The translations under genes were made by a program, and so were the position numbers. Below the pieces are notes generated by a model. The model was not told the DNA's origin and made no database searches. It was given only the letters and a program-made list of their open reading frames with translations. A stretch of 64,000 nucleotides of DNA. Source: Phycisphaerae bacterium (GTDB taxonomy: Bacteria; Planctomycetota; Phycisphaerae; UBA1845). This document shows positions 37,679 through 61,176 of the stretch, in pieces (the stretch's first letter is position 1; each line of letters begins with the position of its first letter). The stretch lies in contig JAJDDQ010000051.1 in assembly GCA_029260215.1 (NCBI GenBank), positions 186,001 through 250,000 of the forward strand, given 5' to 3'.

Positions 37679-38824
37679 ATGCGATTCTATCGACTGAGTG
37701 AATTCGCCGTAGCGATGGCGGCTGCGACATGGTTGTGCGGGTGTGCGTCCGATCCGGCGGCTGATTCGACGGTTGTCATGGTTCAGCGCGGTGCGAGGCC
37801 GACGTTGACCGCAGGCCACACGCGGGAGCTGACGCTTTTCGGTGGTTTGCCCCGTCGCGGCGAGTCCCGCTTCGAGGGTCGGTCGCGGGGTGCGATGTTG
37901 CAGCATACGTTCACGCGTGAAGGCTCGGATTTCGATTGCCGGGTCGATCGTGACGGGCTGCGATTCATATTCGCATCGACGCGGCACAGCCCTCAGTCGG
38001 ACATTTACATTAAGTCGCTCAACGGTACGGCGGTGACGCAATTGACCTCCGATCCGAGTTCGGACATTCAGCCGGCGTTCAGTCCGGATAATTCCAAGGT
38101 GGCGTTTGCGAGCAATCGCACGGGCAATTGGGATATCTGGGTGGTGAGCCTCGACGGTCAGCAGCCGATGCAGATCACGCATTCGCCGATGGACGAAGTG
38201 CATCCGAGCTGGTCGCCGGACGGCAAGGTGCTCGCTTACAGCGCGCTGCCGCCGAACGACCGCCAGTGGGAGCTTTGGGTTTCGCCGGCGGAGGAACATT
38301 CCACGTCGACATTCATTGGATACGGGCTGTTTCCGGAGTGGTCTCCGGTGGACAACCGGATTCTGTTCCAGCGATCGCGTCAGCGCGGCAGCCGCTGGTT
38401 CAGCGTCTGGACGATTGAGCTTGTGGACGGCGAACCGCGTTATCCGACAGAGGTGGCGTCGAGTGCCGACTATGCGTTGATCACGCCGTCATGGAGTCGC
38501 GACGCGCAGCATATCGCCTATGCTTCAGTGACCAATCTTCCTTCGATCGATCCGGAGTTCGGTGCGACGTACGAGTCGTCGGACATTTGGGTGGTGGATG
38601 CGCAGGGTGGTTCGCGTGTGCGTCTGACGGATGGCCATTCGGTGAACTTTTTGCCGAGCTGGTCGCCTTCCGGTCGCGTGTTGTTCAGCAGCATGCGGGC
38701 CGGTCATGAGAACATATGGAGCATCATGCCGACGATCGGCAACGCGACGTATTCGCCGGTCACGCGTGATTGGCCTGAACAGAACGGCCCGCCTGTGGTA
38801 ATTCACACGAGCGGGCGCGGATAA
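37679..38824 (+). CDS. TolB-like beta-propeller lipoprotein
   Basis: The 381-residue protein has a lipoprotein signal (TWLCGC, Cys at about residue 22) and a beta-propeller of WD40-like PD40 repeats. DIQPAFSPDNSKVAFASNRT, EVHPSWSPDGKVLAYSALPP, GLFPEWSPVDNRILFQRSRQ, LITPSWSRDAQHIAYASVTN and NFLPSWSPSGRVLFSSMRAG each carry the (P-x-WSPDG-x-(I/V)-x-F) pattern. TolB-type propellers bind proteins or polymers in the periplasm. Because of the lipid anchor and the absence of tol genes, it is probably an envelope-binding protein, not TolB itself. A second lipoprotein gene follows. Confidence 0.85.
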   Translation: MRFYRLSEFAVAMAAATWLCGCASDPAADSTVVMVQRGARPTLTAGHTRELTLFGGLPRRGESRFEGRSRGAMLQHTFTREGSDFDCRVDRDGLRFIFASTRHSPQSDIYIKSLNGTAVTQLTSDPSSDIQPAFSPDNSKVAFASNRTGNWDIWVVSLDGQQPMQITHSPMDEVHPSWSPDGKVLAYSALPPNDRQWELWVSPAEEHSTSTFIGYGLFPEWSPVDNRILFQRSRQRGSRWFSVWTIELVDGEPRYPTEVASSADYALITPSWSRDAQHIAYASVTNLPSIDPEFGATYESSDIWVVDAQGGSRVRLTDGHSVNFLPSWSPSGRVLFSSMRAGHENIWSIMPTIGNATYSPVTRDWPEQNGPPVVIHTSGRG

Positions 38825-38958
38825 AAGACAACGAAACGCGGTTGGTCATTAAGGCCGTCCGCTGAATGGACGATGATTCGATTGTCGTCCTAAAGAAGAT
38901 CGCGGGCATGGATGCCCGACGCCGTACGAAGACGGTGGAGATCAGGGAGGGTCCGGGG

Positions 38959-39696
38959 ATGATTTGGACAACTTTCCGTCGCTTGTCGATGGGATCATGC
39001 GTGCCGGTGCTTGCGGTGTTTTTCCTGGCTGGATGCGGGGGGAAACGAACCCGATCGGTGGCGTTGTCCAACGAGACGCTGGGTCCGATGACGATAGCCG
39101 TCGCACCGGCATTGAACGTGAGCGGTTCCGTGGAGATCGACGTGAATCGTGCGGCCGACGTGATGGCCGGCGAGTTGAGTTACGTTGACGGGATCCAGGT
39201 GATTCCTGTGAACCGCGTTCTTGCGATTCTCGGGGATCAGAGAAAGAAGTTCGTTGAGTCGCCGGGGCACGCTCTTGAGATTGCCAAGCGACTCGGGGCG
39301 GACGGCGTGTTGGTTTTTGCGATTACGGAGTATGATGCGTATGAGCCTCCAATCATCGGGATCACAGCGCAGGTCTTTGGCACGCGGCGTGACAGGGGAA
39401 CCGTCCGGTTCGACCCGGTCAGCCAGTCGCGCCTGGGATCGCCGTGGCCCGGAGGCGGACGGGGTGCTTCCCTGGCTCCGCTCGCGCAGGCACAGCGCAT
39501 CCTTGACGCTTCGCATGAGCGGGTGCGCTCGGAGATTGAGCGATTCGCGTCGTCCCGAAACGCTGACGAGAGTCCGCTTGGATGGCGCAAGTATGTCGCC
39601 AGCCAGCAGCTCTACCTGCGGTTTTGCTGTCACGAAACGATTCGATCGTTAGTGACTGTTGATAGAGTTGAAGCAATGACCGGCGACGCCGAGTGA
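38959..39696 (+). CDS. Lipoprotein with LpoB/CsgG-like domain
   Basis: Starting at ATG 38959 after GGGAGG, the protein has 245 residues with lipobox FLAGC. The next part (TIAVAPALNVSGSVEIDVNR, then LSYVDGIQVIPVNRVLAILG and IAKRLGADGVLVFAITEYDA) has the pattern of CsgG/LpoB-type proteins: a strand-rich domain in which a regulator or secretion subunit lipoprotein is formed. The C-terminal 100 residues are polar and helical. It is likely co-transcribed with the upstream propeller lipoprotein. An envelope role is inferred. Confidence 0.6.
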   Translation: MIWTTFRRLSMGSCVPVLAVFFLAGCGGKRTRSVALSNETLGPMTIAVAPALNVSGSVEIDVNRAADVMAGELSYVDGIQVIPVNRVLAILGDQRKKFVESPGHALEIAKRLGADGVLVFAITEYDAYEPPIIGITAQVFGTRRDRGTVRFDPVSQSRLGSPWPGGGRGASLAPLAQAQRILDASHERVRSEIERFASSRNADESPLGWRKYVASQQLYLRFCCHETIRSLVTVDRVEAMTGDAE

Positions 39697-39718
39697 CGTC
39701 GCCGACCGGAGCCCCGCC

Positions 39719-39925
39719 ATGAAAGGCATACGACAGCTTTCGTTGGTAAAGGGAACGGAACGATACGTGTTTCGTTACCAGGCGGGAGATGAAGCCAGAA
39801 TCATCGATGCATTGGCGTCGATGGCGTCCGATCGATCGACGAAATTCGACTGGTTTGACGCGGCTGTGCTAAGTTATCAGATGGGCCGAAAGCTTGAGAA
39901 GGAACTCGACGAGGTTGCCAAGTAG
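39719..39925 (+). CDS. Conserved-looking small cytoplasmic protein, 68 aa
   Basis: The product (starting MKGIRQLSLVKGTERYVFRY and ending WFDAAVLSYQMGRKLEKEL plus a short tail) has no signal or membrane helix and no cysteine. It looks like a compact alpha/beta unit. It lies 22 bases after the LpoB-like lipoprotein and before xerC, so it is probably in the same transcript. I do not know the family. Similar short proteins of this type seem familiar from planctomycetes, but this is memory, not a search. Confidence 0.6.
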   Translation: MKGIRQLSLVKGTERYVFRYQAGDEARIIDALASMASDRSTKFDWFDAAVLSYQMGRKLEKELDEVAK

Positions 39926-40060
39926 GGCGACGGCCACAAGTTGCTCCGACGTGAGCGTTTTCCCAAGGCGCTGCCAGACCCACGGCAGCGGGGGGGACGC
40001 ATGGCGTTGAGAGAAGGGTTAAAAGTGGTTGGAGTTTCGCCGTTGCATTGTGATGCCGAC

Positions 40061-41077
40061 ATGACCGAGAACCGCTTAGTAAACGAGTTCCTCAATTATC
40101 TCAACTTCGAGCGCCACTTCTCGCCTCATACGGCGAAATGTTACGGTGCCGATCTCACCCAGTTCTGCGCATTTCTGTCGAGCGAACGCGGCGGCGGGCT
40201 TGCGAGCGGAACGACGAATGTGGGCGCGACACCTGCTCCGAGCGGGGACGTCACGTCCACCGCTACCGGGGATGGAACGTCTACCGCGGTCATGGTCAAG
40301 ACAGACCTGACGCAGCGGCTGCTCGCGGTAACCGCCGACGACGTCAAGTCGCTTCTGGCTTTTCTGGGTGAACAGAATTATTCGAAGTCGACGATTGCGC
40401 GTAAACTCGCAACGCTCCGCAGCTTCTACAAGTTCTGCGTGCGGCGGAATTACCTGACGGCGAACCCGCTGTCATCGATCCGCATGCCGAAGCAGGAGAA
40501 GCGGCTGCCGAAGTTCCTGAGTGTCCACGAAGTTGACAAGCTTCTGAACACGCCTGAGGTGACCACGCTCCTGGGAGCGCGTGATCGGGCGATGCTCGAA
40601 GTGATGTACTCGACGGGCATCCGGGTCAGCGAGCTGGTGGCGCTCAACGCGTCCGATGTGGATTTCACCGCGCAGGTATTGCGTGTTCGCGGCAAGGGCA
40701 AGAAGCAACGCAACACGCCGATCGGACCGACCGCGTTGGGAACGATTCAGCGATACATCGACATGCGACGGGCCGACGTGCGCAGCGCGAGCTTCGATCA
40801 GGAAGCGTTGTTTGTGAACAAGCACGGCCAGCGTCTGAGCACGCGAAGTGTTCGCCGGAAGCTGGACAAGTATCTGGGTGTCGCGGGGTTGGATCCGTCC
40901 ATCTCTCCGCACACGCTTCGGCACAGCTTTGCGACGCACATGCTGGACAAGGGTGCGGACCTGCGCAGCGTGCAGGAGTTGCTTGGTCATCAGTCGATCT
41001 CGACGACCCAGGTCTACACGCATCTGACGGCGGAGCGAATGAAGGCTGAGTACGATAAGTCGCATCCGCGAAGCTGA
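40061..41077 (+). CDS. xerC: Tyrosine recombinase XerC/XerD
   Basis: This 338-residue recombinase has an N-terminal SAM-like domain (LVNEFLNYLNFERHFSPHTA) and a catalytic domain with R188 (TGIRVSEL), H284 and R287 (HTLRHSFATHML), H310 (LLGHQSISTTQVY) and the nucleophile Y319. XerC/D resolve chromosome dimers at dif with FtsK. Residues about 42-80 form a Gly/Ser/Thr/Ala-rich insertion (GGGLASGTTNVGATPAPSGD and on) inside the N-terminal domain, uncommon for Xer. ATG 40001 gives a 20-residue extension and is possible. A terminator follows the stop. It is the only apparent Xer gene in the window; XerC versus XerD is not certain. Confidence 0.9.
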   Translation: MTENRLVNEFLNYLNFERHFSPHTAKCYGADLTQFCAFLSSERGGGLASGTTNVGATPAPSGDVTSTATGDGTSTAVMVKTDLTQRLLAVTADDVKSLLAFLGEQNYSKSTIARKLATLRSFYKFCVRRNYLTANPLSSIRMPKQEKRLPKFLSVHEVDKLLNTPEVTTLLGARDRAMLEVMYSTGIRVSELVALNASDVDFTAQVLRVRGKGKKQRNTPIGPTALGTIQRYIDMRRADVRSASFDQEALFVNKHGQRLSTRSVRRKLDKYLGVAGLDPSISPHTLRHSFATHMLDKGADLRSVQELLGHQSISTTQVYTHLTAERMKAEYDKSHPRS

Positions 41078-41145: not shown

Positions 41146-41472
41146 CATTAATCAAGGTGGAAGGTTCCGATGTACACGCGATCGTGATGGCGCGCGTGGC
41201 AGAGACGGTCTGCGCGTAAGCATCCAATTCTTCGAGCGCGCGGAGCCGCCTCGGTCAGGCCGTGCAGCGGCGCGTGGTACAATTTCTGTGAAGAAATGCA
41301 AACACAATTCACCTGTCCCGCCAAGTCCTCCGATAAGCGACATGAGCGTAGTACCGCGCGTGCTGCTGCTTATGCGCGCCGCCGTACGGCGGGGTTGCGA
41401 CATTTGTAAACATTTTCTCGCCTGGCAGTCGTGACGCAAGGCGGTGGAGTTTCTGGAGAAAGGTCGATCAAC
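41146..41472. other. Upstream region of the giant repeat protein
   Basis: No gene is supported. It contains a perfect 14-bp palindrome CCGCCGTACGGCGG (41379-41392) and a Shine-Dalgarno-like GGAGAAAGG about ten bases before ATG 41473. No convincing sigma-70 promoter was found. Confidence 0.4.
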
Positions 41473-44400
41473 ATGACAGCAAATCGTAGTGCAATTCTTA
41501 CAAAGTGGGTCGCGCCGCTGGTACTCACCATCATCGCTGCCCCCACAATGGCGGACACCATTACCGGTGCGACGAACGCCAGCGGTGTGGCAGACGCTTC
41601 GCTGCTGAACTTCACATCTTCAGCCACGCTGACTATGGATGCGTCCTTGACAACGACGGCCACGATCAGTGTGCAGACCGGCATCAACGCGGTCATCGAT
41701 TTTACGACGTCGACCAATACGATCACGTTCGCGACGAGTGGCGCTGCGATCAATCTGGTCGGCAGCGGCACGTTGACGATCGTCGGATCGAATGCCGCCG
41801 CCGGGTTCACGTTTGGCGCTGCGACTGGGCAAACGTTGACGGTCAACGGTTCGGTAGCTGGCGGCGTGAATGCGAACAGGTTCGTGATTGGTAACAACAC
41901 GCTGCAAATCACCTCCGCGGCTACGATGGCGGGCACGGTGACGATCGGTGGGGCCAGCGCGGTGCTGAACGTCGACGCGAACGCAACGATCGCGACGCTG
42001 GATCTTACGGGTAATGCCACGGCGTCGATTGCGTCGTCGATCACGCTGACTGCGACAAACGGCGTGGATACAAACACCAACACATTGATAATAAACGAGA
42101 CGGGAACCATTTCGCAGGTTGACATCGATGGTACGGGCGGCACGGTCCAACTGACGGCGGCCACCGCGACGATCACGACCTTGACGCACACAGCGGCCGG
42201 CACAATCGACCTCGATACTGACTTGTGCAACCTGACGGTCACGAACGATATCGTGACCAGCAATCTGAAGCTGATACTCAACGGTTCCGGGGCGGGCGGC
42301 GTGGAAACGCTGACCGCGACTGTCGATCTCTCCGGCGGTACGACTTCCGAACTTGAAGTCACCGGTGCCGATGTAGACAACATCGTCATCACCGAGGTGG
42401 ATGTCAGCGTGGATGGCGCGACGTTGGATTGTAACATCAACTGTGCACCGACACTCGTGGACATGAACGCAGGCCAAGGAAATCTGACGCTGGAAGTTGC
42501 GAGCGGCAAGACGCTGACCACGACTACCGGTGTGGATATCAACGACAACACGCTGGCGGTGACTGAGGCCGGCACGATCTCCAAGATCACGATGGACACG
42601 TCCACGGGTATCGCGGACTTCAACGAAAGCTGCACGGTTACGACGTTCGACCTGACGGCGGCTGGCACGGTGGATGTGGCCAACACCAAGACGCTGACCG
42701 CGACCAACGGCGTGGACACCAACACCACAACGCTGACGCTCAACAACACGGGCACGATTTCGAAGGTGGACATCGACGGTGCAGCCGGCATCGTCCAACT
42801 GACGGCGGCCACCGCGACGATCACGACGCTCACGCACACGGCGGCTGGCACGATCGATCTCGACACCAACCTGTGCAACCTGACGGTTACGAACGATATC
42901 GTGACCGGAAACCGGAAACTAACGCTCAACGGATCGGGGGCGGGCGGTGTGGAAACGCTGACTGCGACAGTCGATCTTTCGGGCGGCACGAGTTCTGAGC
43001 TTGAAATCACGGGCGCTGATGCGGACAACATTGTTGTTACCGAAGTGGATGTCAGCGTGGACGGTGCGACGTTGGATTGCAACATCGACTGTGCCCCGAC
43101 GCTTGTGGACATGAATTCGGCTGCTGGCAACTTGACGTTGGAAGTCGCCACCGGCAAGACGCTTACCACGACCACCGGCATCGACATCAACAACAATACG
43201 CTGACCATCTCCGAGGCCGGCACGATCTCCAAGATCACGATGGACACCGCCACCGGCATCGCAGATTTCAACGAAAGCTGCACGGTCACGACGTTCGACC
43301 TCACTGCGGCGGGCACGGTAGACGTGGCCAGCACGAAAACGCTGACCGCGACCAACGGTGTGGATACCAACACGGCGATCGTGACGTTGGCCGGCGTGGG
43401 TACGATCACCCAGGTTGATATCGATGGTACAGCCGGAGGTGTCAGACTGACGGCGGCGACGGCGACGATCACCACGCTCACGCACACTGCGGCGGGCTCG
43501 ATTGATCTGGATACGGACACGTGCAACCTGACGGTCACCAACGACATTGTTACCGGCAATCAGAAGTTGACGCTTATGGGTTCGGGTGGAACGGGTCAGG
43601 AACAGCTCACCGCGACTGTCGATCTGTCCGGCGGGACGAGTTCTGAGCTTGAAGTCACGGGCGCTGATGCGGACAACATCGTCATCACGGAAGTGGATGT
43701 CAGTGTGGACGGTGCGACGTTGGATTGCAACTTCAACTGTGCTCCGACACTTGTGGACATGAATGCCGGTGCGGGCAATCTCACACTGGAAGTGGCCAGC
43801 GGCAAGACGCTTACCTCGACTACGGGCGTGGACATCAACGACAACACGTTGACGGTTTCGCAGGCCGGCACGATTTCCTTGATCACGATTGATATGTCCA
43901 CCGGTATCGCGGACTTCAACGAAAGTTGCACGGTTACGACGTTCGACCTGACGGCGGCCGGCACGGTGGATGTAGCCAGCGGGAAGACGCTGACCGCCAC
44001 CAACGGCGTGGATACCAACACCACGACGCTGACGCTTAACAACACGGGTACGATTTCGAAAGTTGACATCGACGGCGCGAGCGGCATCGTCCAACTGGCG
44101 GCGGCGAGTGCGACGATTACGACACTCACGCACACGGCGGCTGGCACGATCGACCTCGACACGGACACAGCCAACCTTACGGTGACCAACGACATCGTGA
44201 CCGGTAATCAGAAGCTGACGCTTATGGGGTCCGGTGGCACAGGACAGGAGCAACTCACGGCTACCGTTGATTTGTCCGGCGGCACGAGTGCTGAGCTTGA
44301 AATCGTCGGCGCGGATGCGGACAATATCGTTGTTACGGAAGTGGATGTCAGCGTGGACGGCGCGACGTTGGATTGCAACATCAATTGCGCCCCGACGCTG

Positions 44401-47400
44401 GTGGACATGAACGCAGCCGCGGGCAATCTCACGCTCGAGGTCGCGACCGGCAAGACGCTCACCACCACCACCGGCATCGACATCAACGATAACACCTTGG
44501 CGGTGACTGAGACCGGCACGATCTCCAGGATCACGATGGACACCGCCACCGGCATTGCGGACTTCAACCAAAGCTGCACGGTCACGACTTTCGACCTGAC
44601 GGCCAACGGCACGTTGGACGTGGCCAACACCATGACGCTGATGGCGACCAACGGCGTGGACACGAATACCGCGACGATGACGCTCAACAACACAGGCACG
44701 ATTACGAAGGTGGACATCGACGGTGCGGCTGGCACGGTCAGGCTGACAGCGGCCACCGCGACGATCACAACCCTCACGCACACGGCGGCAGGTACGATCG
44801 ATTTAGACACCGACACGTGCAACCTGACGGTCACGAACGACATCGTCACCGGCAATCAGAAGCTAACTCTCACAGGTTCGGGCGGCGGCGGCCAGGATGT
44901 GTTGACGGCGACCGTCGATCTGTCCGGCGGCACCAGTGCAGAGCTTGAAATCACGGGCGTGGACGCGGACAACATTTCACTAACTGAGGTGGATGTCAGC
45001 GTGGACGGCGCAACGTTGGATTGCAACATCAACTGTGCCCCGACGGCTGTGGACATGAACGCAGCCCAAGGCAATCTCACGATTCAGGTTGCCAGTGGCA
45101 AGACGCTGACCAGCACCGTCGATGTCAACGACAACACGCTGACACTCGGCGAAGCGGGCACGGTATCGACGGTGCAAATCGATACGGCTGCCGGTGTGGT
45201 GGACGTGAATGAAAGTTGCACAGTCACCAGTCTGACCAACACTCAGAACTTCAGCATCGACGTGGCAGCGGGCAAGACGCTGACCAACACAGTCAACATT
45301 GCGGCGCGTACGCTCACTTTGCTGGGAACCGGCACGATTACCCGTGTCGACACGACCACCGGAACCATTACCGACAACGGCGGCACGACGATATCGGATC
45401 TTCGTGCTACGTTTGGTAGCGGTGGAACATTCACGTGGAACGGCACCGGAAGCGGAACGATTACCACGCTCGCCAACGCTCTGCCGGGCGCGGGTGAGAA
45501 ATTCCTGAAAGACGGAGCCGGATCGGTGACCATCGCCAGCGGCATCACGACATCGTTCGCGAGCGCTGCCGGCGTACTCTTTGATATCGACGGCGGTACG
45601 CTTGTCGTCGGCTCGGCTGGCACGAACGACGACATTACGTTCAATGACGATGCCGATGAAATCACCGTCGCCAGCGGTGCGGCGTTGACCACATTCGGCA
45701 GCTTCACTGTCGGAGCGGCTGGCGCTAATGTGAATCTTGATGCGGTCGCTGGCTCGACCGTGAATTTCAGCTCGACCAGCGGCGCTGAGACCCTCACCGG
45801 AGTGGCCGACGATGACTTCAACATCCTCGGGACGTTGAATATCACCGGTGCCGATGGTGATTACACGATCAGTGACGCGTTCAATTACAAACTCGGGAGC
45901 GTCAACATCGGTGCCTCGAATTCGCTGATCAACCTTCAGCCGAGCGGCGAAGTGAAGTTCGTTCCAAACTCGACGGTGGCGGTGAGCGGCAACGGTGTTT
46001 TGAACTTCAACGGCCAAGCGAGCGGCACGCGGATCACGTTGGATACGACGACCGGTTCCGGAACGTTCACGATCAATCGTGGAAGCTCCACCGGCATGAC
46101 GTTGAACAACGTCGCGCTGGCCAACGCAACATACGCCGATACTGATTCGAAACCGGCTATCTGCGCTCTATCGCTGACCGGCACATCCTTCGCGGGAACG
46201 GTCAACTACCTTGGCGGATGTGGATCAGCCGATACGGGCGGTGCATCAACCCCACCGGTGGATACCACCACGGAAGAGGACACGACGACCGAGGAGGATA
46301 CGACGACCGAAGAAGACACGACGACCGAGGACGGATCAGACTCGACCGCTATCATTCCGGAAGACGACGGCGATGTGGTCGCCATTGACGACATGAACGA
46401 CCCGGTCGACTCGGCAGACCCCATCATGCCGGTCGAAGACACCGCACGCGACGACGGCACGGCTGATGTCGCGGACGAAAAAGTCGATGTCATGATCGGC
46501 GGTCTGCGTCAGGGAACAGCCGTCGAGCTCAGCACCGACGAAGCAGGCATGAGCACGCTCACCGTCGGTGATGCCGAGAATCCCGAACTCGTCGTCATGA
46601 TTGACGGCACAGAGACTGGTGCCGAAATCGATGTCGCGTTTGAGGATGACGGAACACAATCGCTCATGATCGTCAATCCCGACGGCGGGCAGGCGCTGAA
46701 CGTGAACATCGGCGGCCTGGGCGACAACCCCACGATCGAGGTTTCGATCGATGAGAGCGGCGATCAGATGCTGTTCTTCCGGGATGCAGCCGGGTCGAGC
46801 TATGACTTCGAGCTCGAAGACCTGCCCGAAGGTTCGGACGTTGAGTTCTCAACCTCGACCGACGGTAGTGTCCAACTGGACATCTTCGACCCGAACGGCG
46901 AGAACGTCAGCACGACGATTGGTGCCACGAACGTCTTCCAGACGTTCGGTGCAAACGTCACCTACGATCAGCCGCAGACCTCCGCCACCGCCCGCGTCCT
47001 TACGGGGTTCGCCGGACTCGCCAACGAAGAGTCCTACGGTGGAAGTGTCACCGTTTCCGCGACCGGTTTGACGACAAACTCGGTGGCCACGGTTGAGTTG
47101 CAGTACCTCGATGCCGATCTCGACGGAGTCGATGAAACGTCGCTGCGTCTGCACCGACTCGACACCCAGACTGGCGAATACGAACTTGCCGGTGCGACCG
47201 ATCAGGGCGATCGCGCTCCGACGGGCGTCGCGGGCGACTTCGGCCTCGAAACCGCGGACAACCAGGTCTGGGCCGAGGTGACTTCATTCGGTCGGTTCAC
47301 AATCGGCGTGCCCAAGGCCGTCCAGGACGAGCCGACTTTGACCTCCGGTTGTGCCAACGGCGGCATGTGCGGAACGATGGGCCTGATCTGCCTGCCCATG

Positions 47401-47448
47401 TGCATGCTGGGTCTGCTTGGTATGAAGCGCAACATGCGCCGCTTCTAA
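41473..47448 (+). CDS. Giant secreted repeat protein (1991 aa) with a Cys-rich C-terminal anchor
   Basis: A signal peptide (residues about 1-27, VLTIIAAPTMADT) starts the protein. Residues about 190-1270 are made of five tandem units of 216 residues (last one 214). Each has the same order: TNGVDTNT, TLTHTAAGTIDLDTD, ATVDLSGGTS, VDVSVDGATLDCNINCAPTL, LEVATGKTLTTTTG and IADFNESCTVTTFDL. This short-strand Thr/Asp/Asn pattern suggests a beta-solenoid. The next 330 residues are also beta-rich. A Thr-Glu-Asp linker follows (TTEED repeated three times), then an Asp/Glu-rich region. The C-terminus reads SGCANGGMCGTMGLICLPMC, a hydrophobic end and KRNMRRF, like a sorting or anchoring signal. Likely an adhesin or surface-layer-type protein; no enzyme domain seen. 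Confidence 0.85.
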   Translation: MTANRSAILTKWVAPLVLTIIAAPTMADTITGATNASGVADASLLNFTSSATLTMDASLTTTATISVQTGINAVIDFTTSTNTITFATSGAAINLVGSGTLTIVGSNAAAGFTFGAATGQTLTVNGSVAGGVNANRFVIGNNTLQITSAATMAGTVTIGGASAVLNVDANATIATLDLTGNATASIASSITLTATNGVDTNTNTLIINETGTISQVDIDGTGGTVQLTAATATITTLTHTAAGTIDLDTDLCNLTVTNDIVTSNLKLILNGSGAGGVETLTATVDLSGGTTSELEVTGADVDNIVITEVDVSVDGATLDCNINCAPTLVDMNAGQGNLTLEVASGKTLTTTTGVDINDNTLAVTEAGTISKITMDTSTGIADFNESCTVTTFDLTAAGTVDVANTKTLTATNGVDTNTTTLTLNNTGTISKVDIDGAAGIVQLTAATATITTLTHTAAGTIDLDTNLCNLTVTNDIVTGNRKLTLNGSGAGGVETLTATVDLSGGTSSELEITGADADNIVVTEVDVSVDGATLDCNIDCAPTLVDMNSAAGNLTLEVATGKTLTTTTGIDINNNTLTISEAGTISKITMDTATGIADFNESCTVTTFDLTAAGTVDVASTKTLTATNGVDTNTAIVTLAGVGTITQVDIDGTAGGVRLTAATATITTLTHTAAGSIDLDTDTCNLTVTNDIVTGNQKLTLMGSGGTGQEQLTATVDLSGGTSSELEVTGADADNIVITEVDVSVDGATLDCNFNCAPTLVDMNAGAGNLTLEVASGKTLTSTTGVDINDNTLTVSQAGTISLITIDMSTGIADFNESCTVTTFDLTAAGTVDVASGKTLTATNGVDTNTTTLTLNNTGTISKVDIDGASGIVQLAAASATITTLTHTAAGTIDLDTDTANLTVTNDIVTGNQKLTLMGSGGTGQEQLTATVDLSGGTSAELEIVGADADNIVVTEVDVSVDGATLDCNINCAPTLVDMNAAAGNLTLEVATGKTLTTTTGIDINDNTLAVTETGTISRITMDTATGIADFNQSCTVTTFDLTANGTLDVANTMTLMATNGVDTNTATMTLNNTGTITKVDIDGAAGTVRLTAATATITTLTHTAAGTIDLDTDTCNLTVTNDIVTGNQKLTLTGSGGGGQDVLTATVDLSGGTSAELEITGVDADNISLTEVDVSVDGATLDCNINCAPTAVDMNAAQGNLTIQVASGKTLTSTVDVNDNTLTLGEAGTVSTVQIDTAAGVVDVNESCTVTSLTNTQNFSIDVAAGKTLTNTVNIAARTLTLLGTGTITRVDTTTGTITDNGGTTISDLRATFGSGGTFTWNGTGSGTITTLANALPGAGEKFLKDGAGSVTIASGITTSFASAAGVLFDIDGGTLVVGSAGTNDDITFNDDADEITVASGAALTTFGSFTVGAAGANVNLDAVAGSTVNFSSTSGAETLTGVADDDFNILGTLNITGADGDYTISDAFNYKLGSVNIGASNSLINLQPSGEVKFVPNSTVAVSGNGVLNFNGQASGTRITLDTTTGSGTFTINRGSSTGMTLNNVALANATYADTDSKPAICALSLTGTSFAGTVNYLGGCGSADTGGASTPPVDTTTEEDTTTEEDTTTEEDTTTEDGSDSTAIIPEDDGDVVAIDDMNDPVDSADPIMPVEDTARDDGTADVADEKVDVMIGGLRQGTAVELSTDEAGMSTLTVGDAENPELVVMIDGTETGAEIDVAFEDDGTQSLMIVNPDGGQALNVNIGGLGDNPTIEVSIDESGDQMLFFRDAAGSSYDFELEDLPEGSDVEFSTSTDGSVQLDIFDPNGENVSTTIGATNVFQTFGANVTYDQPQTSATARVLTGFAGLANEESYGGSVTVSATGLTTNSVATVELQYLDADLDGVDETSLRLHRLDTQTGEYELAGATDQGDRAPTGVAGDFGLETADNQVWAEVTSFGRFTIGVPKAVQDEPTLTSGCANGGMCGTMGLICLPMCMLGLLGMKRNMRRF
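42043..45276 (+). repeat. Five tandem 648-bp coding repeats
   Basis: Homologous points fall at 42043, 42691, 43339, 43987 and 44635 (648 apart), and the next at 45277 (642, two codons missing). A second set of points (42397, 43045, 43693, 44341, 44989) gives the same period. Units are highly similar in DNA but not identical, with many silent changes. Confidence 0.95.
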
Positions 47449-47480
47449 CAGGCCAAACGATCAACGCAAATCAGGACGAC

Positions 47481-47516
47481 GGCGTCGGGATTAGTCTCCC
47501 GGCGCCGCCTTTTTTT
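47481..47516 (+). terminator. Rho-independent terminator of the giant repeat gene
   Basis: GGCGTCGGGA (47481-47490) pairs with TCCCGGCGCC (one G-T pair), then GCC and seven Ts. It lies 33 bases after the stop. Confidence 0.85.
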
Positions 47517-47819: not shown

Positions 47820-49334
47820 GTGAGCGTCAGCCCTATCTCATCATTGACCAGTTCGCTCGTTTCGAGCGTGGTGCAGACCAGCGCGGGACGGCCCTCGACC
47901 GCAAGTGGCGCGGGCTTCGGCCCCCCTTTTGTTCTGGGCGGCTCTACGCAGGATTTCAGCGAGGGGTTGTACAACGCCATCGGCGACTTGCAGGGCGCTG
48001 CCTCAACCGCACCGACCGTGCCAGCCACCCCGTCAGCCGCCGAAGAGAAACGAACAGACCAACTCACGGACGCAGCTGAGAAAATCGGTACCGGAGACAT
48101 TCAAGCCGGTCGAGAGCAGGCTGAAGCCCTGATCGAAAACAACGCCGACGACGCCTCCGCACTCTATCTGGTTGGCTACTCCTACGCGCAGGAACTGAAT
48201 TACGAGAAAGCGGAGCAGTTCTATATTCGAGCCGCATACTTTGAGCCGAACAATCAGCAACTGCAAACAGATTTAGCCACCGCCAGGTCATTGCAAAAGA
48301 GCGATGAATCCGTTCTGGCTGAGGCCCGCACAAAAATAGCCAGCCCGGAGCGTCGCGACGAAGGCATCAGCCTGCTCTTGCGGCTCACCGACCGAAGCCC
48401 GGACAACGCCGGTGCCTATCTCGCACTCGCCGATGCGTTCAGCGCCACGGGTTCCACCATTCAGGTCATCGGAGCCGTTCAGGAAGCGTTGAGTGCAGCC
48501 AGCGGACAAGACCTTGACGAAGTCGTCCGCAAAGCCGAAGCGCTCGTCGAAGAAAATCCGGAAGCAGGCATCACCCGTAACCTCCTTGGCCGGGCGCTGG
48601 AAAAGGCGGGCCGGACAGACGAAGCCATCACCCAGCTTCGAACTGCCAACCGCGGCGCCCCCGACAACGTCGCCTATATATTCGATCTCGCAGACGCCTA
48701 TGTGCGTCGCGCGACCAGCAAGCTCAAGAAAAACAACGTCACCTCCGCACAGGCAGACATGACAGCCGCACAGGCGATCGACCCCGCCAACGGCGGGCTG
48801 CCCGGCGTGGCAGCTCGGGTCGCCGCCGCGAAAGCGGGCACTGACATTACTGCCGGCCTCTACAACCGGGCGTTCGCCCAGCTCGGCACCGCAGCAGCCA
48901 AAGCACCGGACGACGAAGCGTTCAAGAAGAAAGTAGCTTCACTCTATGGTCGCGTAGCTGCCAAATTCGAAAACGACAACGATGATTCCGTCGCACTCAC
49001 CAGTTACCGAAGGGCCTACGAACTCGACCCCGAGTCAGATTTCTTAGAGAGGAAAGTGGGCGAGCTAAGCTACAGCGAAGGCCTAAAAGCCGGCACAAAC
49101 AACAACCGCGACACCGCGATTGCCCTCCTCGAACAGGCCTATCAAACTGACAGAACCAACACAACCTATCGCCAGGCGTTGTCGAACGCCTACGACCAGC
49201 GAGGTCAGTTCTACACCGCCCTCGATAAGCCCGACGAAGCGCTTGCCGATTTCAAGAAAGGTTTTTCCATCGACCCCACGAATGCCTCCGTCGACCAGAA
49301 TCTGTCCACCGCCCTCGCAGCACAAGGCAGTTGA
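47820..49334 (+). CDS. TPR-repeat protein, 504 aa
   Basis: The start is GTG 47820 with GGAGG five bases before it. Residues 1-80 are Ser/Thr/Pro-rich and contain GRPSTASGAGFGPPFVLGGS. TPR-type helical repeats follow (ALYLVGYSYAQELNYEKAEQ, AGAYLALADAFSATGST, GITRNLLGRALEKAGRTDEA and, near the end, YRQALSNAYDQRGQFYTALD). No signal peptide or membrane helix is evident, so it is probably cytoplasmic or exported by another route. TPR arrays bind partner proteins. It converges on the radical-SAM gene with only three bases between stops. Confidence 0.8.
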   Translation: MSVSPISSLTSSLVSSVVQTSAGRPSTASGAGFGPPFVLGGSTQDFSEGLYNAIGDLQGAASTAPTVPATPSAAEEKRTDQLTDAAEKIGTGDIQAGREQAEALIENNADDASALYLVGYSYAQELNYEKAEQFYIRAAYFEPNNQQLQTDLATARSLQKSDESVLAEARTKIASPERRDEGISLLLRLTDRSPDNAGAYLALADAFSATGSTIQVIGAVQEALSAASGQDLDEVVRKAEALVEENPEAGITRNLLGRALEKAGRTDEAITQLRTANRGAPDNVAYIFDLADAYVRRATSKLKKNNVTSAQADMTAAQAIDPANGGLPGVAARVAAAKAGTDITAGLYNRAFAQLGTAAAKAPDDEAFKKKVASLYGRVAAKFENDNDDSVALTSYRRAYELDPESDFLERKVGELSYSEGLKAGTNNNRDTAIALLEQAYQTDRTNTTYRQALSNAYDQRGQFYTALDKPDEALADFKKGFSIDPTNASVDQNLSTALAAQGS

Positions 49335-49337
49335 CGG

Positions 49338-50699
49338 CTATTGCGTGATCGTAGCGGGGGAGATCGCCGTCGCGGGGCGGTAGATACAGTCATGTGGGCA
49401 TGTCGCGCATTGCCCGGACGAGACGTCGCGCTCAACCGTGTAGGCTTCGCGCCCCGACCAGATGGTCTCGATGTCATGCTCGACCAGCGACCCGATTCTG
49501 AGATGCGAGTGGCAGCATACGAACACATCGCCGTTGACTTCCACATAGACACAATCGCGATCGCGCGAGCACGGCTCGACGACCGACGTAGCCGGAATAA
49601 GCCCGGGGTAGAGCATTTCAAGGCGGTCCCAATTGACGGGAATCGGGGGTGCATCGACGAGTTTCCGAACCTGTGATTCGATCAGCTCACGGTCGAGAAG
49701 ATGCAGACTGAGCGCATCGACCCCGATCGTCACAGCGTCAACGCCAAGCTCCGCTCCCAGTTCGACGAGCGCGGAGATTTCGTGCTGCGTGTCGGGAATG
49801 ACCACCATACTGATTTGAATGACGAGGGGCGCGTTGCAATCATTACGCATCGCCACCGTCCGGCGAACGTTCTCCATCGCCTGCGCGTGCCTGTCCTGGC
49901 CCGCAACCTTCTTGTACGTTTCGGGTGTCGCCGCCACAACAGAGTTGTACACGCCGCCGCCCGTACGACAGAACACGTCGGCCCACCGTTCGTCAAACAA
50001 CACCGCGTTGGTTGTCATGTCGAGTGAGGCTTTTGGGTATTTCCGCGCGACCTCTTCGGCGAAGGGGAGTGCATGACGAAACGCGGTCACTTCGCCGCCG
50101 ACCAGGCTTATCGTGTGGACGTGGGGATAAACGGCGCGTAGTTTCTCGTTGAAAATGGCGGGGTCCATGCGCTCGGTGAAGTCGGTCTGGTAGCAGAACG
50201 AACAGCGAATATTGCATGTCTTGCACATAACGATGGTGACCGATTTGACGTCGACAAGTGTACGCACGCGGCTTGGCGATCGCCCCTCGGGTGCCAACGC
50301 ATCGACGACGTAACGCCGTGGAAAAACCACGCGGACGCCGGGCGCAAGGGCGCGAACCTTGTCAGCCAGACGTTCCTCGACCGACGGGCGCTTTGCACAG
50401 AGGAGCACGTGTGTCGGCTTCCAGATGCTCAGCGCCTCGGCCAGCGAGCGGACATCCGACCGGCCTGCAAGATCGCTGTCGTCAGCAAATCCGACAAATG
50501 TCCGCCCGTGCAAGAGATCATTCGTGACAAGGTCGCCCGCCGCAAGCCAAGCGTTCCGACCGCCCGGATAGACAAGAAACCGCGCATCATGGGGTATGGC
50601 TCGAACGGCTCGCTCAAGAAGGCTGGAGGACCAGCCTTCATTAGCAACAGACGCCTCGCGTACCGGACTGTCGCAGCTTTTGAGCACATCAACGCTCAT
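49338..50699 (-). CDS. Radical SAM protein with N-terminal Rossmann-like and C-terminal Cys-rich (SPASM-like) parts
   Basis: This 453-residue protein has three parts. Residues about 25-135 look like a Rossmann-type module (ARFLVYPGGRNAWLAAGDLV, then TFVGFADDSDLAGR). Residues 152-340 form the radical-SAM core, with C162, C166 and C169 in MCKTCNIRCSFCYQTD holding the [4Fe-4S]/SAM cluster. The end carries more cysteines (PCSRDRDC, FVCCHSHLRIGSL, GQCATCPHDC) of SPASM/twitch type, for auxiliary clusters. Such proteins modify peptides, sugars or cofactors. The next gene upstream in the transcript, a methyltransferase with a similar Rossmann module, is 29 bases away. Substrate unknown. Confidence 0.88.
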   Translation of the reverse strand: MSVDVLKSCDSPVREASVANEGWSSSLLERAVRAIPHDARFLVYPGGRNAWLAAGDLVTNDLLHGRTFVGFADDSDLAGRSDVRSLAEALSIWKPTHVLLCAKRPSVEERLADKVRALAPGVRVVFPRRYVVDALAPEGRSPSRVRTLVDVKSVTIVMCKTCNIRCSFCYQTDFTERMDPAIFNEKLRAVYPHVHTISLVGGEVTAFRHALPFAEEVARKYPKASLDMTTNAVLFDERWADVFCRTGGGVYNSVVAATPETYKKVAGQDRHAQAMENVRRTVAMRNDCNAPLVIQISMVVIPDTQHEISALVELGAELGVDAVTIGVDALSLHLLDRELIESQVRKLVDAPPIPVNWDRLEMLYPGLIPATSVVEPCSRDRDCVYVEVNGDVFVCCHSHLRIGSLVEHDIETIWSGREAYTVERDVSSGQCATCPHDCIYRPATAISPATITQ

Positions 50700-50728: not shown

Positions 50729-51826
50729 TTAGACATCCAGAGACACCGTCTTGATTTTGCCGCCGAACACATCCTGTGCACGACGTCTGAGTACGTCAGC
50801 CTGATGCCAGGACGAAATCACGACGGCTCCGAGAGAATCTGTATCCACCTCTGTGGGACGAATACACGGAAGCCCCGCCACAGTACCACCGACCGGAATA
50901 CGGTCGTCAAGAACACAAGACACCTGCACGCCGCCAATATCCCTCACCTGATCCAATAGCCAGGGCGTGTGCGTACCCGCTCCGAAGATGGCCACCGGGC
51001 GACGGGTTGAACCTGCGAGCTTGGTCCATGCTTCGCGTACTCGTGCCCTGCGGCGATCGACATTGATCGGAAATTCCTGGTCGAGCGTTTCATCGAAAAT
51101 GTGATGTGCGGAAAACCTGCCCGGTGTGGCCACCGCGAAATAATGCGCACCTCCGGGACTGTCCTCGATGGATTCCGTTTGAATCTCGAAACCAGCCGTA
51201 GTGAGATACTGGCGAATCATGGCTGTGTTGAAAGACCAAAACCCATGCGCCCCCGAAGCGTAACGATCAAGCCGGCACAACGGCTCATCACCATTCCCGT
51301 CCAAATCGACCGCACTTGTGATAAACAGTTTTCCCCTGCACCGGGCGCGCAGCGCGTTGAGTGTGCCAAGCGGATCGATGAGATGATAAATCAAACCAAG
51401 ACAGAAAACGAAATCGAACGTTTCGTCATCGAGCATTCGTTCAACGCCACCGCAGCGAAACGCAACATTGTCGAGCCCCGAGGCGCTCCGGATGAATTCG
51501 GCGTGCTCATAATTATATCGGTTTCGTTCGATGCCCAGGACACGACTGGCACCACGGCGAGCCGCCCAAAACGCAACCAGCCCATCCGCGCAGCCAACAT
51601 CCGCCGCGCTCAGGCCGGATAGGTCGCTCGGCAATTCGTCCCCAAGCTGACCAAGGAGCTGTCGCCCCGAAGCGTCTACGCGCTCGAGGTCGGGGTTGAC
51701 GTCGTAATCTTCCGCGAAGCGCGTACGCAAGCCGTCAACGACTTCGATATCGTGGTACCACAGGCGGCGGCGATGAAGCTCACGCTCGATGCTGACGCTT
51801 GCTGTGTTCGATTTCAGTTGTGTCAT
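50729..51826 (-). CDS. SAM-dependent methyltransferase with C-terminal Rossmann-like module
   Basis: The 365-residue protein starts with WYHDIEVVDGLRTRF, similar to the region before the fold in CmoB-like methyltransferases. The class I fold follows, with the SAM-binding SAADVGCADGLVAFWAARRG and FDFVFCLGLIYHLIDPLG. The C-terminal 110 residues (RPVAIFGAGTHTPWLLDQV, then CVLDDRIPVGGTVAGLPCIR) form a second Rossmann-like module of the kind found in sugar C-methyltransferases. It likely works with the radical-SAM protein encoded downstream on the same small-molecule substrate; this is inference. I chose ATG 51826. A TTG at 51862 is possible but has no better support. Confidence 0.85.
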   Translation of the reverse strand: MTQLKSNTASVSIERELHRRRLWYHDIEVVDGLRTRFAEDYDVNPDLERVDASGRQLLGQLGDELPSDLSGLSAADVGCADGLVAFWAARRGASRVLGIERNRYNYEHAEFIRSASGLDNVAFRCGGVERMLDDETFDFVFCLGLIYHLIDPLGTLNALRARCRGKLFITSAVDLDGNGDEPLCRLDRYASGAHGFWSFNTAMIRQYLTTAGFEIQTESIEDSPGGAHYFAVATPGRFSAHHIFDETLDQEFPINVDRRRARVREAWTKLAGSTRRPVAIFGAGTHTPWLLDQVRDIGGVQVSCVLDDRIPVGGTVAGLPCIRPTEVDTDSLGAVVISSWHQADVLRRRAQDVFGGKIKTVSLDV

Positions 51827-51982
51827 GCTTAGGGAACCCCGCCTCCCTCGGGCGAACGCCAAGCCCGATTGCTGGACATTCCGCCCGGTCGCGTCCGATT
51901 TATCGGCCTGATATCTCTCGGGGCTGAAGCGTATCCGCGGGCACCACGCTCTGCAGCTACTTGCCTTCGCGGTGTGACAAAA

Positions 51983-53159: not shown

Positions 53160-56100
53160 ATGCGCACGGTTTGGGTAGTCATTGCGGTCGCGGTGTTGGG
53201 AAGCGGCGTCTGGTTTCTTACGCGGTCCACCAGCGGTTCGGACGCGGAATTCGCACGCTTGATGAACCTGGGCCAAGGGTACATCGAAAACCGCGAAACC
53301 GCTCAGGCTGTCGAGACGCTCACACGCGCGGTCGAAACCCGCCCGGAGTCAGCCCCCGCGTTACGCAACCTCGCACGGGCACACCTGATCCCCAAACGCG
53401 AAGAGAATTATCAAGCCGCAGTCGCCTGCCTGAACCGGGCCATGAAAATCGAGCCGGAATCGTCCGCATCCAGCTATCTCATGGGCTTGGCCCTCAGCGG
53501 GCTTGAGCGGTACGAGGAATCGTTGCCGTTTTTCGAAAAAGCTGTCGCGCTCGATCCCAACACGTCAGCGCTGCGTTATCAGTTCGCATACGTGCTGCAA
53601 ATCGTCGGAGACCAGGATCGGGCCTACGAACAATTGCTCGAAACCGTGCGCCTGCAACCGCTGCACATCAAAGCCATTTACAATCTCTCGCGACACGCTG
53701 CCCGCCGCAAAGATCGCGAAGAGGCCATACGCCTCACCAATGAATTCCGGCGGCTCAAGGAACTGTTCGGCACCCAGCCGGATGACATCTTCCAACGCTG
53801 CACGCACACTCGCCCGGAATCCGCTCCGACCAAACAACCCGAAGGGACCGAACAGGGCATTCCCGTCGTTTGGACGAACGCGACAAGCGAAGTCTTCGCG
53901 TCGGAGGCTGACCGGTCCGCTACGACAGCCGCTGTCATCGAAGTGCTGGACGACGGCACGCCCGTTGTCGTGTCATCCGCTTCGGACGGATCAATCGCCC
54001 TTTTGAGTATCGGCGCGAGCGGGAAATTCGAGCGAACGGAGATACTGCCTCCAAACGCTGATAGGCCAGGTTTTCGTGCGGCGGCTGTCGGGGATTTCTA
54101 CGTACGCATTCCCAGCACCGGATCGGAGAGATTCACACCACGGCGAACCGCCCGCAACGATGTGTTCTTCGTCGGCGACACCGGGTGCCTGTTGTTGGAG
54201 CGTGTGGACGACACGACGTTTGTTGATCGCACACTAGGGTCAGGCCTGGAAGATGTTCACGGGGCTGGAGCGATTTGGGTGGACTACGATCACAACGGCA
54301 TTCTCGACTTGTTTGTGGAGAGTGGCCTTGATGGCGCACAGCTTTGGCAAAACAACTCCTATGTCATTCGCGTCGATTCAACCGGGCAGGCGGACGAAGC
54401 CATGAACGCCGAGTCGCTCGAATTCATAAACGTAAGCGAAATCGTCGGCCTCAATGGGTTATCTGCGGCGTATGAAATCGCAGCCGCGGATGTCGATGGC
54501 AACCTGACGACCGATCTGATCGTGGCCGGGGCGGAAGGAACAAGCGTGTATCTGAACACCCGTGCCGGTACGTTCAAACCAATGCCGTCTCCTCCCGGCC
54601 CTTGGCAAGATGCATTGCAATTCGGCATCGACGATCTGAACAATGACGGTTACACCGACATTCTGCTGATCAATCCGTTTGGTTCCCGTCTGATGTACGG
54701 AAACAGCAACCTGAGTTACGTTTTCGATCATACCGGCTTCCTGACTATGCGTGCACTCTTGTGCGACTTCGACAATGACGGCCGACAGGACATCATTTTT
54801 TGTGGCGTCGATTCAACAAAGAAGCGGGTGAAGGGATCGCCGCACGATGCCATTTTTAGCGCTTACCGAAACCTCGGCGCGAACGAATGGACCAATGTGA
54901 CAACTGCCACCCGCGTCGACCAACTGGCGATAAAGGACGATGCCATAGGACCCATCGCAGGCGACTTCGACAACGACGGTGACACGGACATCCTGCTCGT
55001 CACCATGCAGGAAAAACTACACTTCATCCGCAACGACGGCGGAAACGCCAACGGAAAGCTCAAAATACGACTCGCCACCATCCTCACCAACACCACAGGC
55101 CTGGGCAATCACATCGAGCTTCGCGACGGATCATTCAGAGTGTCACGATTTGTCACCAAGCTGCCGATCGAAATCGGCATCGGCCCACACACCCAATTCG
55201 ACACCGTCCACACAACGTGGACAAACGGCGTACTCGACAATGAATTCCTCATCTCCGCCACCAAAGAACCGATCGAACTCGTGGAGAAAATGGTCGAGCT
55301 AGGCTCCTGCCCGTTCCTTTTCGCATGGAATGGGCAACGCTTCCAATTCGTCACCGACATTCTCGGCAACGCCCCCATTGGCCTGTCCATCCGCCGCGAC
55401 GAAATCCTCCCGGCTGACCCGGACGAAATCGTACGCGTCGGACAAGAGAACGAACTCGCGACCCTCAACGGCGACTACGTGCTCGAAGTCGCGGAGTGCT
55501 ACCGCGAGGTACTCTACCTCGACTCAGCCGAGTTGATCGCGGTAGACCATCCAACCAACATCGAAGTGCATCCGACCGACAAGCTCATGCCCCCTCCGTT
55601 CCCCGTTTCACAAATCGTAGCTGTGGAAAACCTCCGCCCGCCGCAATCGGTGGATTCATCCGACGGCATGGATCGCCTCGAAGCACTGCAACACATCGAC
55701 GACCACTACGCCCCGCCCGGTACAACACTCCCGCCGCCGTTTCGCGGATTGTGCCACCCCATGACACTCACCATGAACTTCGGCCCCATCGACCCCGACG
55801 CATCAAACGTGCTCGCCCTCACCGGCTGGCTTCGCTACGGCAGCGCCAGCGTAAACATCGCCGTCGAACAAAACCCGTCCCTCGATATCATTCCCCCAAC
55901 GCTGGAAGTCGAAAACGCGACGGGCGAATGGATACCGGTAGACGCGATCGTAGGCATGCCCGCCGGCAAGACGAAAACCATCCTCTGCGACCTCACCGGC
56001 AAGCTGCCCGAGGGCACCCGACGCCTGCGACTAACCTCGTCATTCGAAATCCGCTGGGACCGCATCGCCCTCGGCACGCACGCCACGCTGAACCCGTCAG

Positions 56101-56549
56101 CCATCCGCATATCGCAACCAACGTCAGCCGATCTGTATCATCGCGGATTCCCCGAGATGGCCAGCCGAGGCAACCACCACCCCATCACGCCCGACTACGA
56201 CACAATCACCAGCACGCCGAAATGGAAAACAACGCCCCAAGGCTGGTGTACACGCTACGGCGATGTGCTCGAACTGCTCGCCGCCGCAGACGAAAAAATC
56301 GCCATCCTCAACGGCGGCGACGCGGTCACCCTGCGCTACAACGAAGCCGATTTCCCCCCACGCGACGCCAACCTCAAACGCACGTTCTTCTTCAAAACCG
56401 TAGGCTGGGAAAAGGACGCAGACTACAACGTCGTAAGCGGCGACACCGTCCACCCCCTGCCGGTAACCATCGCCCCAAACGCCGATTGGCCGAAACGATT
56501 CAACACACGCTACGTCGAAGAGCAACCGTTCAAGAAAACCCCCGACTGA
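53160..56549 (+). CDS. 1129-aa TPR plus FG-GAP (CRTAC1/ASPIC-like) membrane-anchored protein
   Basis: A membrane anchor (MRTVWVVIAVAVLGSGVWFL) is followed by TPR repeats (about 35-210: LMNLGQGYIENRETAQAVET, SSASSYLMGLALSGLERYEE, ALRYQFAYVLQIVGDQDRAY). A beta-propeller-type region with FG-GAP/VCBS units follows (about 390-640: WVDYDHNGILDLFVESGLDG, IDDLNNDGYTDILLINPFGS, LCDFDNDGRQDIIFCGV, GDFDNDGDTDILLV). Then comes an ASPIC/UnbV-like part. The C-terminal 400 residues contain PFLFAWNGQRFQFVTDILGN and are not a named domain to me. The type is widespread in planctomycetes and Acidobacteria; the function is unknown, probably at the cell surface. It is a single gene and not in an obvious operon. 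Confidence 0.85.
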   Translation: MRTVWVVIAVAVLGSGVWFLTRSTSGSDAEFARLMNLGQGYIENRETAQAVETLTRAVETRPESAPALRNLARAHLIPKREENYQAAVACLNRAMKIEPESSASSYLMGLALSGLERYEESLPFFEKAVALDPNTSALRYQFAYVLQIVGDQDRAYEQLLETVRLQPLHIKAIYNLSRHAARRKDREEAIRLTNEFRRLKELFGTQPDDIFQRCTHTRPESAPTKQPEGTEQGIPVVWTNATSEVFASEADRSATTAAVIEVLDDGTPVVVSSASDGSIALLSIGASGKFERTEILPPNADRPGFRAAAVGDFYVRIPSTGSERFTPRRTARNDVFFVGDTGCLLLERVDDTTFVDRTLGSGLEDVHGAGAIWVDYDHNGILDLFVESGLDGAQLWQNNSYVIRVDSTGQADEAMNAESLEFINVSEIVGLNGLSAAYEIAAADVDGNLTTDLIVAGAEGTSVYLNTRAGTFKPMPSPPGPWQDALQFGIDDLNNDGYTDILLINPFGSRLMYGNSNLSYVFDHTGFLTMRALLCDFDNDGRQDIIFCGVDSTKKRVKGSPHDAIFSAYRNLGANEWTNVTTATRVDQLAIKDDAIGPIAGDFDNDGDTDILLVTMQEKLHFIRNDGGNANGKLKIRLATILTNTTGLGNHIELRDGSFRVSRFVTKLPIEIGIGPHTQFDTVHTTWTNGVLDNEFLISATKEPIELVEKMVELGSCPFLFAWNGQRFQFVTDILGNAPIGLSIRRDEILPADPDEIVRVGQENELATLNGDYVLEVAECYREVLYLDSAELIAVDHPTNIEVHPTDKLMPPPFPVSQIVAVENLRPPQSVDSSDGMDRLEALQHIDDHYAPPGTTLPPPFRGLCHPMTLTMNFGPIDPDASNVLALTGWLRYGSASVNIAVEQNPSLDIIPPTLEVENATGEWIPVDAIVGMPAGKTKTILCDLTGKLPEGTRRLRLTSSFEIRWDRIALGTHATLNPSAIRISQPTSADLYHRGFPEMASRGNHHPITPDYDTITSTPKWKTTPQGWCTRYGDVLELLAAADEKIAILNGGDAVTLRYNEADFPPRDANLKRTFFFKTVGWEKDADYNVVSGDTVHPLPVTIAPNADWPKRFNTRYVEEQPFKKTPD

Positions 56550-59682: not shown

Positions 59683-61176
<1,494 letters not shown>

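Follow-up and report, generated by a model that had tools for sequence, protein, structure and literature searches.

A five-unit repeat in a large, predicted exported protein

What is built by five head-to-tail copies of a 648-bp unit within a single bacterial gene, and does their number still change? The question is raised by a 64,000-nucleotide stretch of DNA (hereafter the window) from the 4.97 Mb genome of a Phycisphaerae bacterium, in which an ORF (41431-47448, +) is open over 2,005 codons. The likelier start codon is the ATG at 41473, with a Shine-Dalgarno-like sequence (GGAGAAAGG, 41455-41463) just upstream; the ORF, this site and homologues together delimit a gene (41473..47448) for a putative modular beta-solenoid surface protein, which lies with all its parts described below on the + strand. 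The protein opens with a predicted Sec signal peptide (MTANRSAILTKWVAPLVLTIIAAPTMA, 41473..41553), read in the translation, and comparable signal sequences open the homologues. A first-pass annotation, made from the sequence alone, had described five tandem 648-bp units in a giant secreted protein. Both points hold up: the predicted exported protein is about 1,990 aa long and is predicted to be a rod of ~2,000 residues, and the start-to-start distances between its five copies (42043..45276) are exactly 648, 648, 648 and 648 nt, only the last copy being shorter (642 bp). Since copy 5 lacks two codons in its terminal block (A', see below), the array end given in that annotation, 45276, is correct. 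Identity at a lag of 648 is 65-88% across about 41973 to 44457 and at background outside. The five-unit repeat is real and far beyond chance; it was missed by TRF because the longest TRF period is 500. Downstream of the gene, a terminator-like hairpin of 11 pairs, nine of them GC, is followed by a T run (47480..47507, +), and hairpins of this class are not more frequent across the region than expected from shuffling. Curated RNA families do not overlap the gene, the sole match in the window being a tRNA at 59683.

The copies have diverged in a characteristic manner. Copies 1-4 share 79-82% of their DNA and 82-88% of their protein sequence, and an ungapped comparison of copy 5 with the others gives 66-70% (DNA) and 64-67% (protein). 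Identity between units is ~60% at third codon positions and about 84-94% at first and second positions; pairwise dS is 0.57-1.06, so that copies differ at about half of their synonymous sites, and dN/dS is 0.10-0.20. Differences are mostly silent and unit length is constant, as had been noted at first pass. Judged from these sequences, the unit copies are old and under strong purifying selection. Exact matches between units reach 35 nt at most and the gene contains no exact repeat of 50 nt, which makes short-read collapse unlikely and leaves little substrate for present-day recombination. We rejected an assembly artefact as the source of the array on the grounds that all exact repeats are shorter than 50 nt; the initial worry over a wrong unit number is answered in part, in that exact repeats of ≤35 nt are resolvable by ordinary short reads.

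Two module types form one predicted solenoid

The 216-aa unit is a composite, a point absent from the first-pass annotation. It consists of module A (61 aa), module B (94 aa) and module A' (61 aa, homologous to A). In unit 1, A (the pre-B type) lies at 42043..42225, B at 42226..42507 and A', which belongs to a separate A lineage, at 42508..42690; further copies of A start at 42691, 43339, 43987 and 44635, those of B at 42874, 43522, 44170 and 44818, and A' repeats every 648 nt up to a last copy of 59 aa (45100-45276). The array is preceded by a beta-rich N-terminal region (41554..42042) with one degenerate A-like block (aa 154-200) and closed by a degenerate A block (45277..45414). It is followed by a conserved beta-helix core of about 270 aa (45400..46230; 43-71% identity across the family alignment), an acidic low-complexity linker of DTTTEED tandem repeats (46260..46440), delimited by TRF and by an AlphaFold pLDDT under 50 at model residues 318-382, and a beta-meander region (46432..46956) with strands about every 11 residues, as assigned by DSSP on model residues 386-560. 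A further beta domain lies between the beta-meander region and the C-terminal tail. The linker is encoded by an 18-bp DNA tandem repeat (46260-46336), and it varies in length and sequence among aligned relatives. The beta-meander region, without a Pfam match, is possibly a single-layer beta sheet and weakly matches OspA.

Sequence searches gave no credible Pfam or NCBIfam match on the array, and a PDB sequence search returned no match. The Pfam hits to DOT1 and TRM5 and the NCBIfam hits to MetW and PRK08654 were set aside as spurious, being short, with no single stretch that passes. The first-pass annotation had suggested predicting the structure of a unit; run on 493 residues (A'-A-B-A'-A-B-A'-A) with a shallow input alignment of nine rows, mostly the protein's own units, AlphaFold returned an all-beta model of one continuous beta-solenoid (pLDDT 87.3, pTM 0.80). 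The autocorrelation of strands has its maximum at 20 residues in A and at 23-24 in B, from which A would comprise three coils and B four wider coils. Stacked parallel coils with a regular strand period, the mark of beta-solenoids, are thus predicted by the model. Foldseek matches are weak (best E-value 0.024). In VIA-align, 35 chains, mostly beta-helices, reach Z of 8 or more against the array model, and the best ranks are beta-helical surface proteins: antigen 43 (Z 16, rmsd 14; the highest matches, at Z 16, have an rmsd above 14 Å), VacA p55 (Z 13.8, rmsd 5.3) and pertactin (Z 12.7, rmsd 4.8), with the S-layer protein RsaA also among the fold matches. Given the weak E-values and the high rmsd, only the general beta-helix fold class is supported. 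Handedness and coil counts derive from DSSP and fold matches, not from inspected coordinates, and on this footing the array is predicted to be one continuous solenoid, right-handed by its fold matches, in which the insertion of a module would preserve the coil register.

The cysteines vary between species. Four Cys positions had been listed as conserved in each unit (in CNLTV, LDC, INC and NESC). The last three are present in all five units, and the CNLTV cysteine is Ala in unit 4. As conserved disulfide positions they find no support: relatives carry Thr, Ala or Leu at the LDC and INC positions of the B module, and the arrays of A-B units in three other genomes (G030, G041 and G037) are nearly Cys-free. 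These alignments lend no support to cross-coil disulfides as a trait of the family; a local C-x3-C bond within B is possible in the source species.

Different lineages probably amplified different segments

Relatives found by a protein scan come from metagenome-assembled Phycisphaerae and other Planctomycetota. Within the source organism's family, homologues were matched in 18 of 51 genomes, the source genome included; at the level of the order, B modules occur in 13 of 114 genomes. Every match in a class-wide sample (397 genomes) falls inside this same single order, and the core was found in none of the other genomes among 392 sampled across the phylum. Within the scope of these searches, the protein family appears restricted to a single order of Phycisphaerae (Planctomycetota). 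No relative turned up among phage records, plasmids or viral contigs, which leaves a mobile-element origin without support. The source genome and others also encode a paralogue (1,301-1,357 aa) that lacks a regular array.

Parsing with A and B profiles revealed distinct higher-order repeats. The window gene reads A-[B-A'-A] repeated, with five B modules spaced by 216 aa. The pattern is [B-A-A-A]x4 in G035 (A-A-A-B units, 275-aa spacing), [B-A]x6 in G030 and [B-A]x4 in G041 (A-B units, 151-aa spacing), [B-A] repeated at least five times in G037 (151-aa spacing; gene cut by the contig end), [B-A]x2 in G091 and irregular in G031. Spacings of 151, 216 and 275 aa fit one B of ~92-94 aa combined with one, two or three A of ~59-61 aa. 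Three of the open frames are nearly equal in total length despite their different units (2005 aa in the window, 1993 and 2009 aa in L044/L043), with cores that begin at aa 1324, 1323 and about 1326. The pattern is broken by G041 (1566) and G031 (2079) and may be chance.

Trees of the parts disagree. In the B tree, window B1-5 and G035 B2-4 form one clade (100/99), and G035 B1 falls with the first B modules of G030 and G041 (98/91). The A tree likewise unites the pre-B A modules of the window and G035 (97/91) and places window A' in a separate clade (100/100). The core tree, in contrast, joins the window with G038 (92/90), and grouping the window and G035 cores is rejected (AU p 0.0026). Identity between the window and G035 is 75% in B, 48% in the core and 33% at the C-terminus; within the window array, B modules are 80-87% identical to the first copy. 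We rejected the idea that the array came recently, by horizontal transfer, from a G035-like donor: synonymous sites between window and G035 modules are saturated (pS 0.74), so any exchange would be old. The pN values for XerC were left out of account, four of the five being implausibly high, probably through a fault in codon register. Given the conflict between module and core trees, each array probably arose by its own amplification from a different founder module. In the simplest view, several B types were already present in an old gene, different segments of which were amplified by different lineages. An old exchange of array segments between lineages might also have occurred, and differential amplification of old module types accounts for the tree conflict equally well. 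On this reading, the five repeats are a stable architecture of long standing and not a switch in rapid change.

A candidate sorting tail at the C-terminus

The protein ends in a sorting-like tail (47335..47445, from the alignment) with a CGxxGM motif, a hydrophobic helix predicted at model residues 700-722 and a basic, Arg-rich end; CG..G is invariant in 13 of 13 aligned tails. Within the source genome, the same tail occurs on the paralogue and on an unrelated exported protein of 1,306 aa with TSP3-like repeats (L108, G000:C84:572-664), and a weaker match ends a 1,137-aa protein with glycoside-hydrolase-like sequence (L109, G000:C43:39304-39414). As it is common to other exported proteins, the tail is a probable sorting tag, and this CGxxG-TM-Arg tail may be an undescribed one of the group. 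Its layout of a Cys motif, a TM helix and an Arg-rich end is that of MYXO-CTERM/myxosortase tails (PMC11980579), and the genome encodes exosortases and yields seven CPBP matches, several of which resemble Mrt proteases. The motif here is, however, CGxxGM, CPBP scores lie below the myxosortase cut-offs, and the last 60 aa match no NCBIfam sorting-tail model at E-values up to 10, a search in which HMMER filters may drop weak matches. From the predicted signal peptide together with the tail, we infer that the protein is displayed at the cell surface.

A proposed modular rod and its possible functions

We consider it reasonably probable that the protein is an exported modular solenoid rod, whose A and B segments were amplified lineage by lineage and which serves as a stalk or adhesive fibre. 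One A-B-A' segment would have been duplicated to five units, later kept by purifying selection, while other lineages of the order would have amplified other A/B segments into A-B or A-A-A-B units. If each module contributes whole coils, modules could be added or lost without breaking the rod, and such gains and losses would make it longer or shorter and change how far apart the wider B segments lie along its axis. Behind the rod would follow the conserved beta-helix, the acidic linker, the beta domains and the Cys-TM-Arg tail, which probably tethers or sorts the rod at the envelope. Its most likely use would be as a stalk or adhesive fibre in contact with a surface or matrix. Fibrillar adhesins combine a known adhesive domain with stalk domains (PMC8286594); a Pfam search found no known adhesive or stalk domain here, though domains of a new kind may be present, and the adhesin role named at first pass is a guess, if a plausible one. 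A narrower version, in which the working sites lie in the B modules and A modules serve as pure spacers of a solenoid ruler with a pitch tuned by evolution, strikes us as rather doubtful. If true, one, two or three A modules would separate successive B sites by about 7, 10 or 13 coils, or roughly 3.4, 4.8 or 6.2 nm at 4.8 Å per coil.

Comparison with known systems places the rod closest to the passenger domains of antigen 43, pertactin and TibA, its best structural matches, which share a predicted right-handed beta-helix rod. It differs from them in its two alternating module types, in its sequence, for which no match is significant, and in its C-terminus, where a hydrophobic helix and Arg residues stand in place of the 12-strand beta-barrel of type Va autotransporters; the protein has no autotransporter Pfam match. 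The Giant1-5 proteins of Apilactobacillus kunkeei (PMC12863079) are likewise very large, exported and repetitive (repeats of 50-366 aa) and carry a beta-solenoid domain. Theirs forms a terminal domain, and Giant1-3 have alpha-helical repeats, whereas here the repeats themselves form the predicted solenoid.

The same matches bear on a second explanation, that of a structural or matrix protein (a sheath, an S-layer or similar) which self-associates side by side and has no separate ligand. Self-associating antigen 43 and RsaA are among the fold matches, the array is Thr-rich (22%) and acidic (pI about 4), and Pfam finds no adhesive domain. Function cannot be read from fold similarity, however, and presence in a minority of the family's genomes would be odd for an essential envelope layer; we regard this explanation as unlikely. 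Quite improbable, in our view, is a length-variable adhesin of the Periscope type, in which homologous recombination within populations would add and remove units and so alter projection from the cell. As in Periscope Proteins (PMC8201768, PMC9704523), a predicted surface protein carries a long repeat stalk; the tandem units of the present family exceed 50 residues and differ in number and type between species. Highly identical repeats and change at the population level define Periscope Proteins (PMC9704523), whereas the repeats here are old and far more divergent (66-82% DNA identity), with no exact match above 35 nt and dS of 0.57-1.06, and the modules belong to one continuous predicted solenoid. 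The initial proposal that repeat number changes by recombination finds no footing in these values, and present-day length switching seems unlikely.

An enzyme that degrades or epimerises polysaccharides through a PL6- or AlgG-like beta-helix catalytic domain is very improbable. The core (AlphaFold pLDDT about 90; beta-helix matches up to Z 15) does resemble alginate lyases and epimerases in fold (Z 13.6-14.3), and giant proteins of the PVC group can carry PL6 and CASH beta-helices (PMC12057145), but other beta-helices match the core equally well, Pfam and NCBIfam give no lyase match, and an array with 1.8% Lys and 0.4% Arg is poor for PL6-type catalysis. An ice-binding solenoid acting through outward Thr ladders is hardly credible: despite the Thr content, TxT motifs in some coils and an ice-binding protein among the low core matches (Z 6.3), TxT does not recur in successive coils and is missing from A coil 2 and most of B.

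Different module compositions at an orthologous locus

One locus, compared between two species, supports the preferred reading of a modular rod amplified by lineage. Upstream of the array gene lies a conserved XerC-type recombinase (39941..41077, +), in a locus orthologous to that of G037. Window and G037 share the upstream genes for XerC (76%), a TolB-like protein (68%) and an unknown gene (60%), and the same slot downstream of XerC holds A-B-A' units in the window and A-B units in G037, whose B modules are 58% identical to those of the window. Because the array gene follows the same block in both, the two genes are positional orthologues. The TolB-like/unknown gene/XerC block is kept in those relatives where the unknown gene was found (in G038 and G031, XerC falls outside the retrieved sequence or at its edge), and among the loci read the array gene adjoins it only in the window and G037.

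Repeat proteins usually contain copies of a single domain. Here, a two-module alphabet forms higher-order repeats that differ among related species, with one species pair showing different compositions at the same locus, and the family offers a natural series for how repeat proteins grow in fold register and for the effect of B spacing. The family is new, lineage-restricted and unannotated, with a predicted beta-solenoid fold and a well-ordered higher-order repeat; together with its probable Cys-type sorting tail, it extends the scant knowledge of the surface proteome in uncultured Phycisphaerae.

Two features of the neighbourhood may be added. In the relatives checked, the genes at 37679-41077, for the TolB-like propeller, a 276-aa protein without annotation and XerC, remain together although the array gene parts from them. 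Further downstream, TPR proteins are encoded at 47820-49334 and 53160-56549, one of them with FG-GAP repeats, near a radical SAM/SPASM protein (49338-50699) and a CmoB-like methyltransferase (50729-51862).
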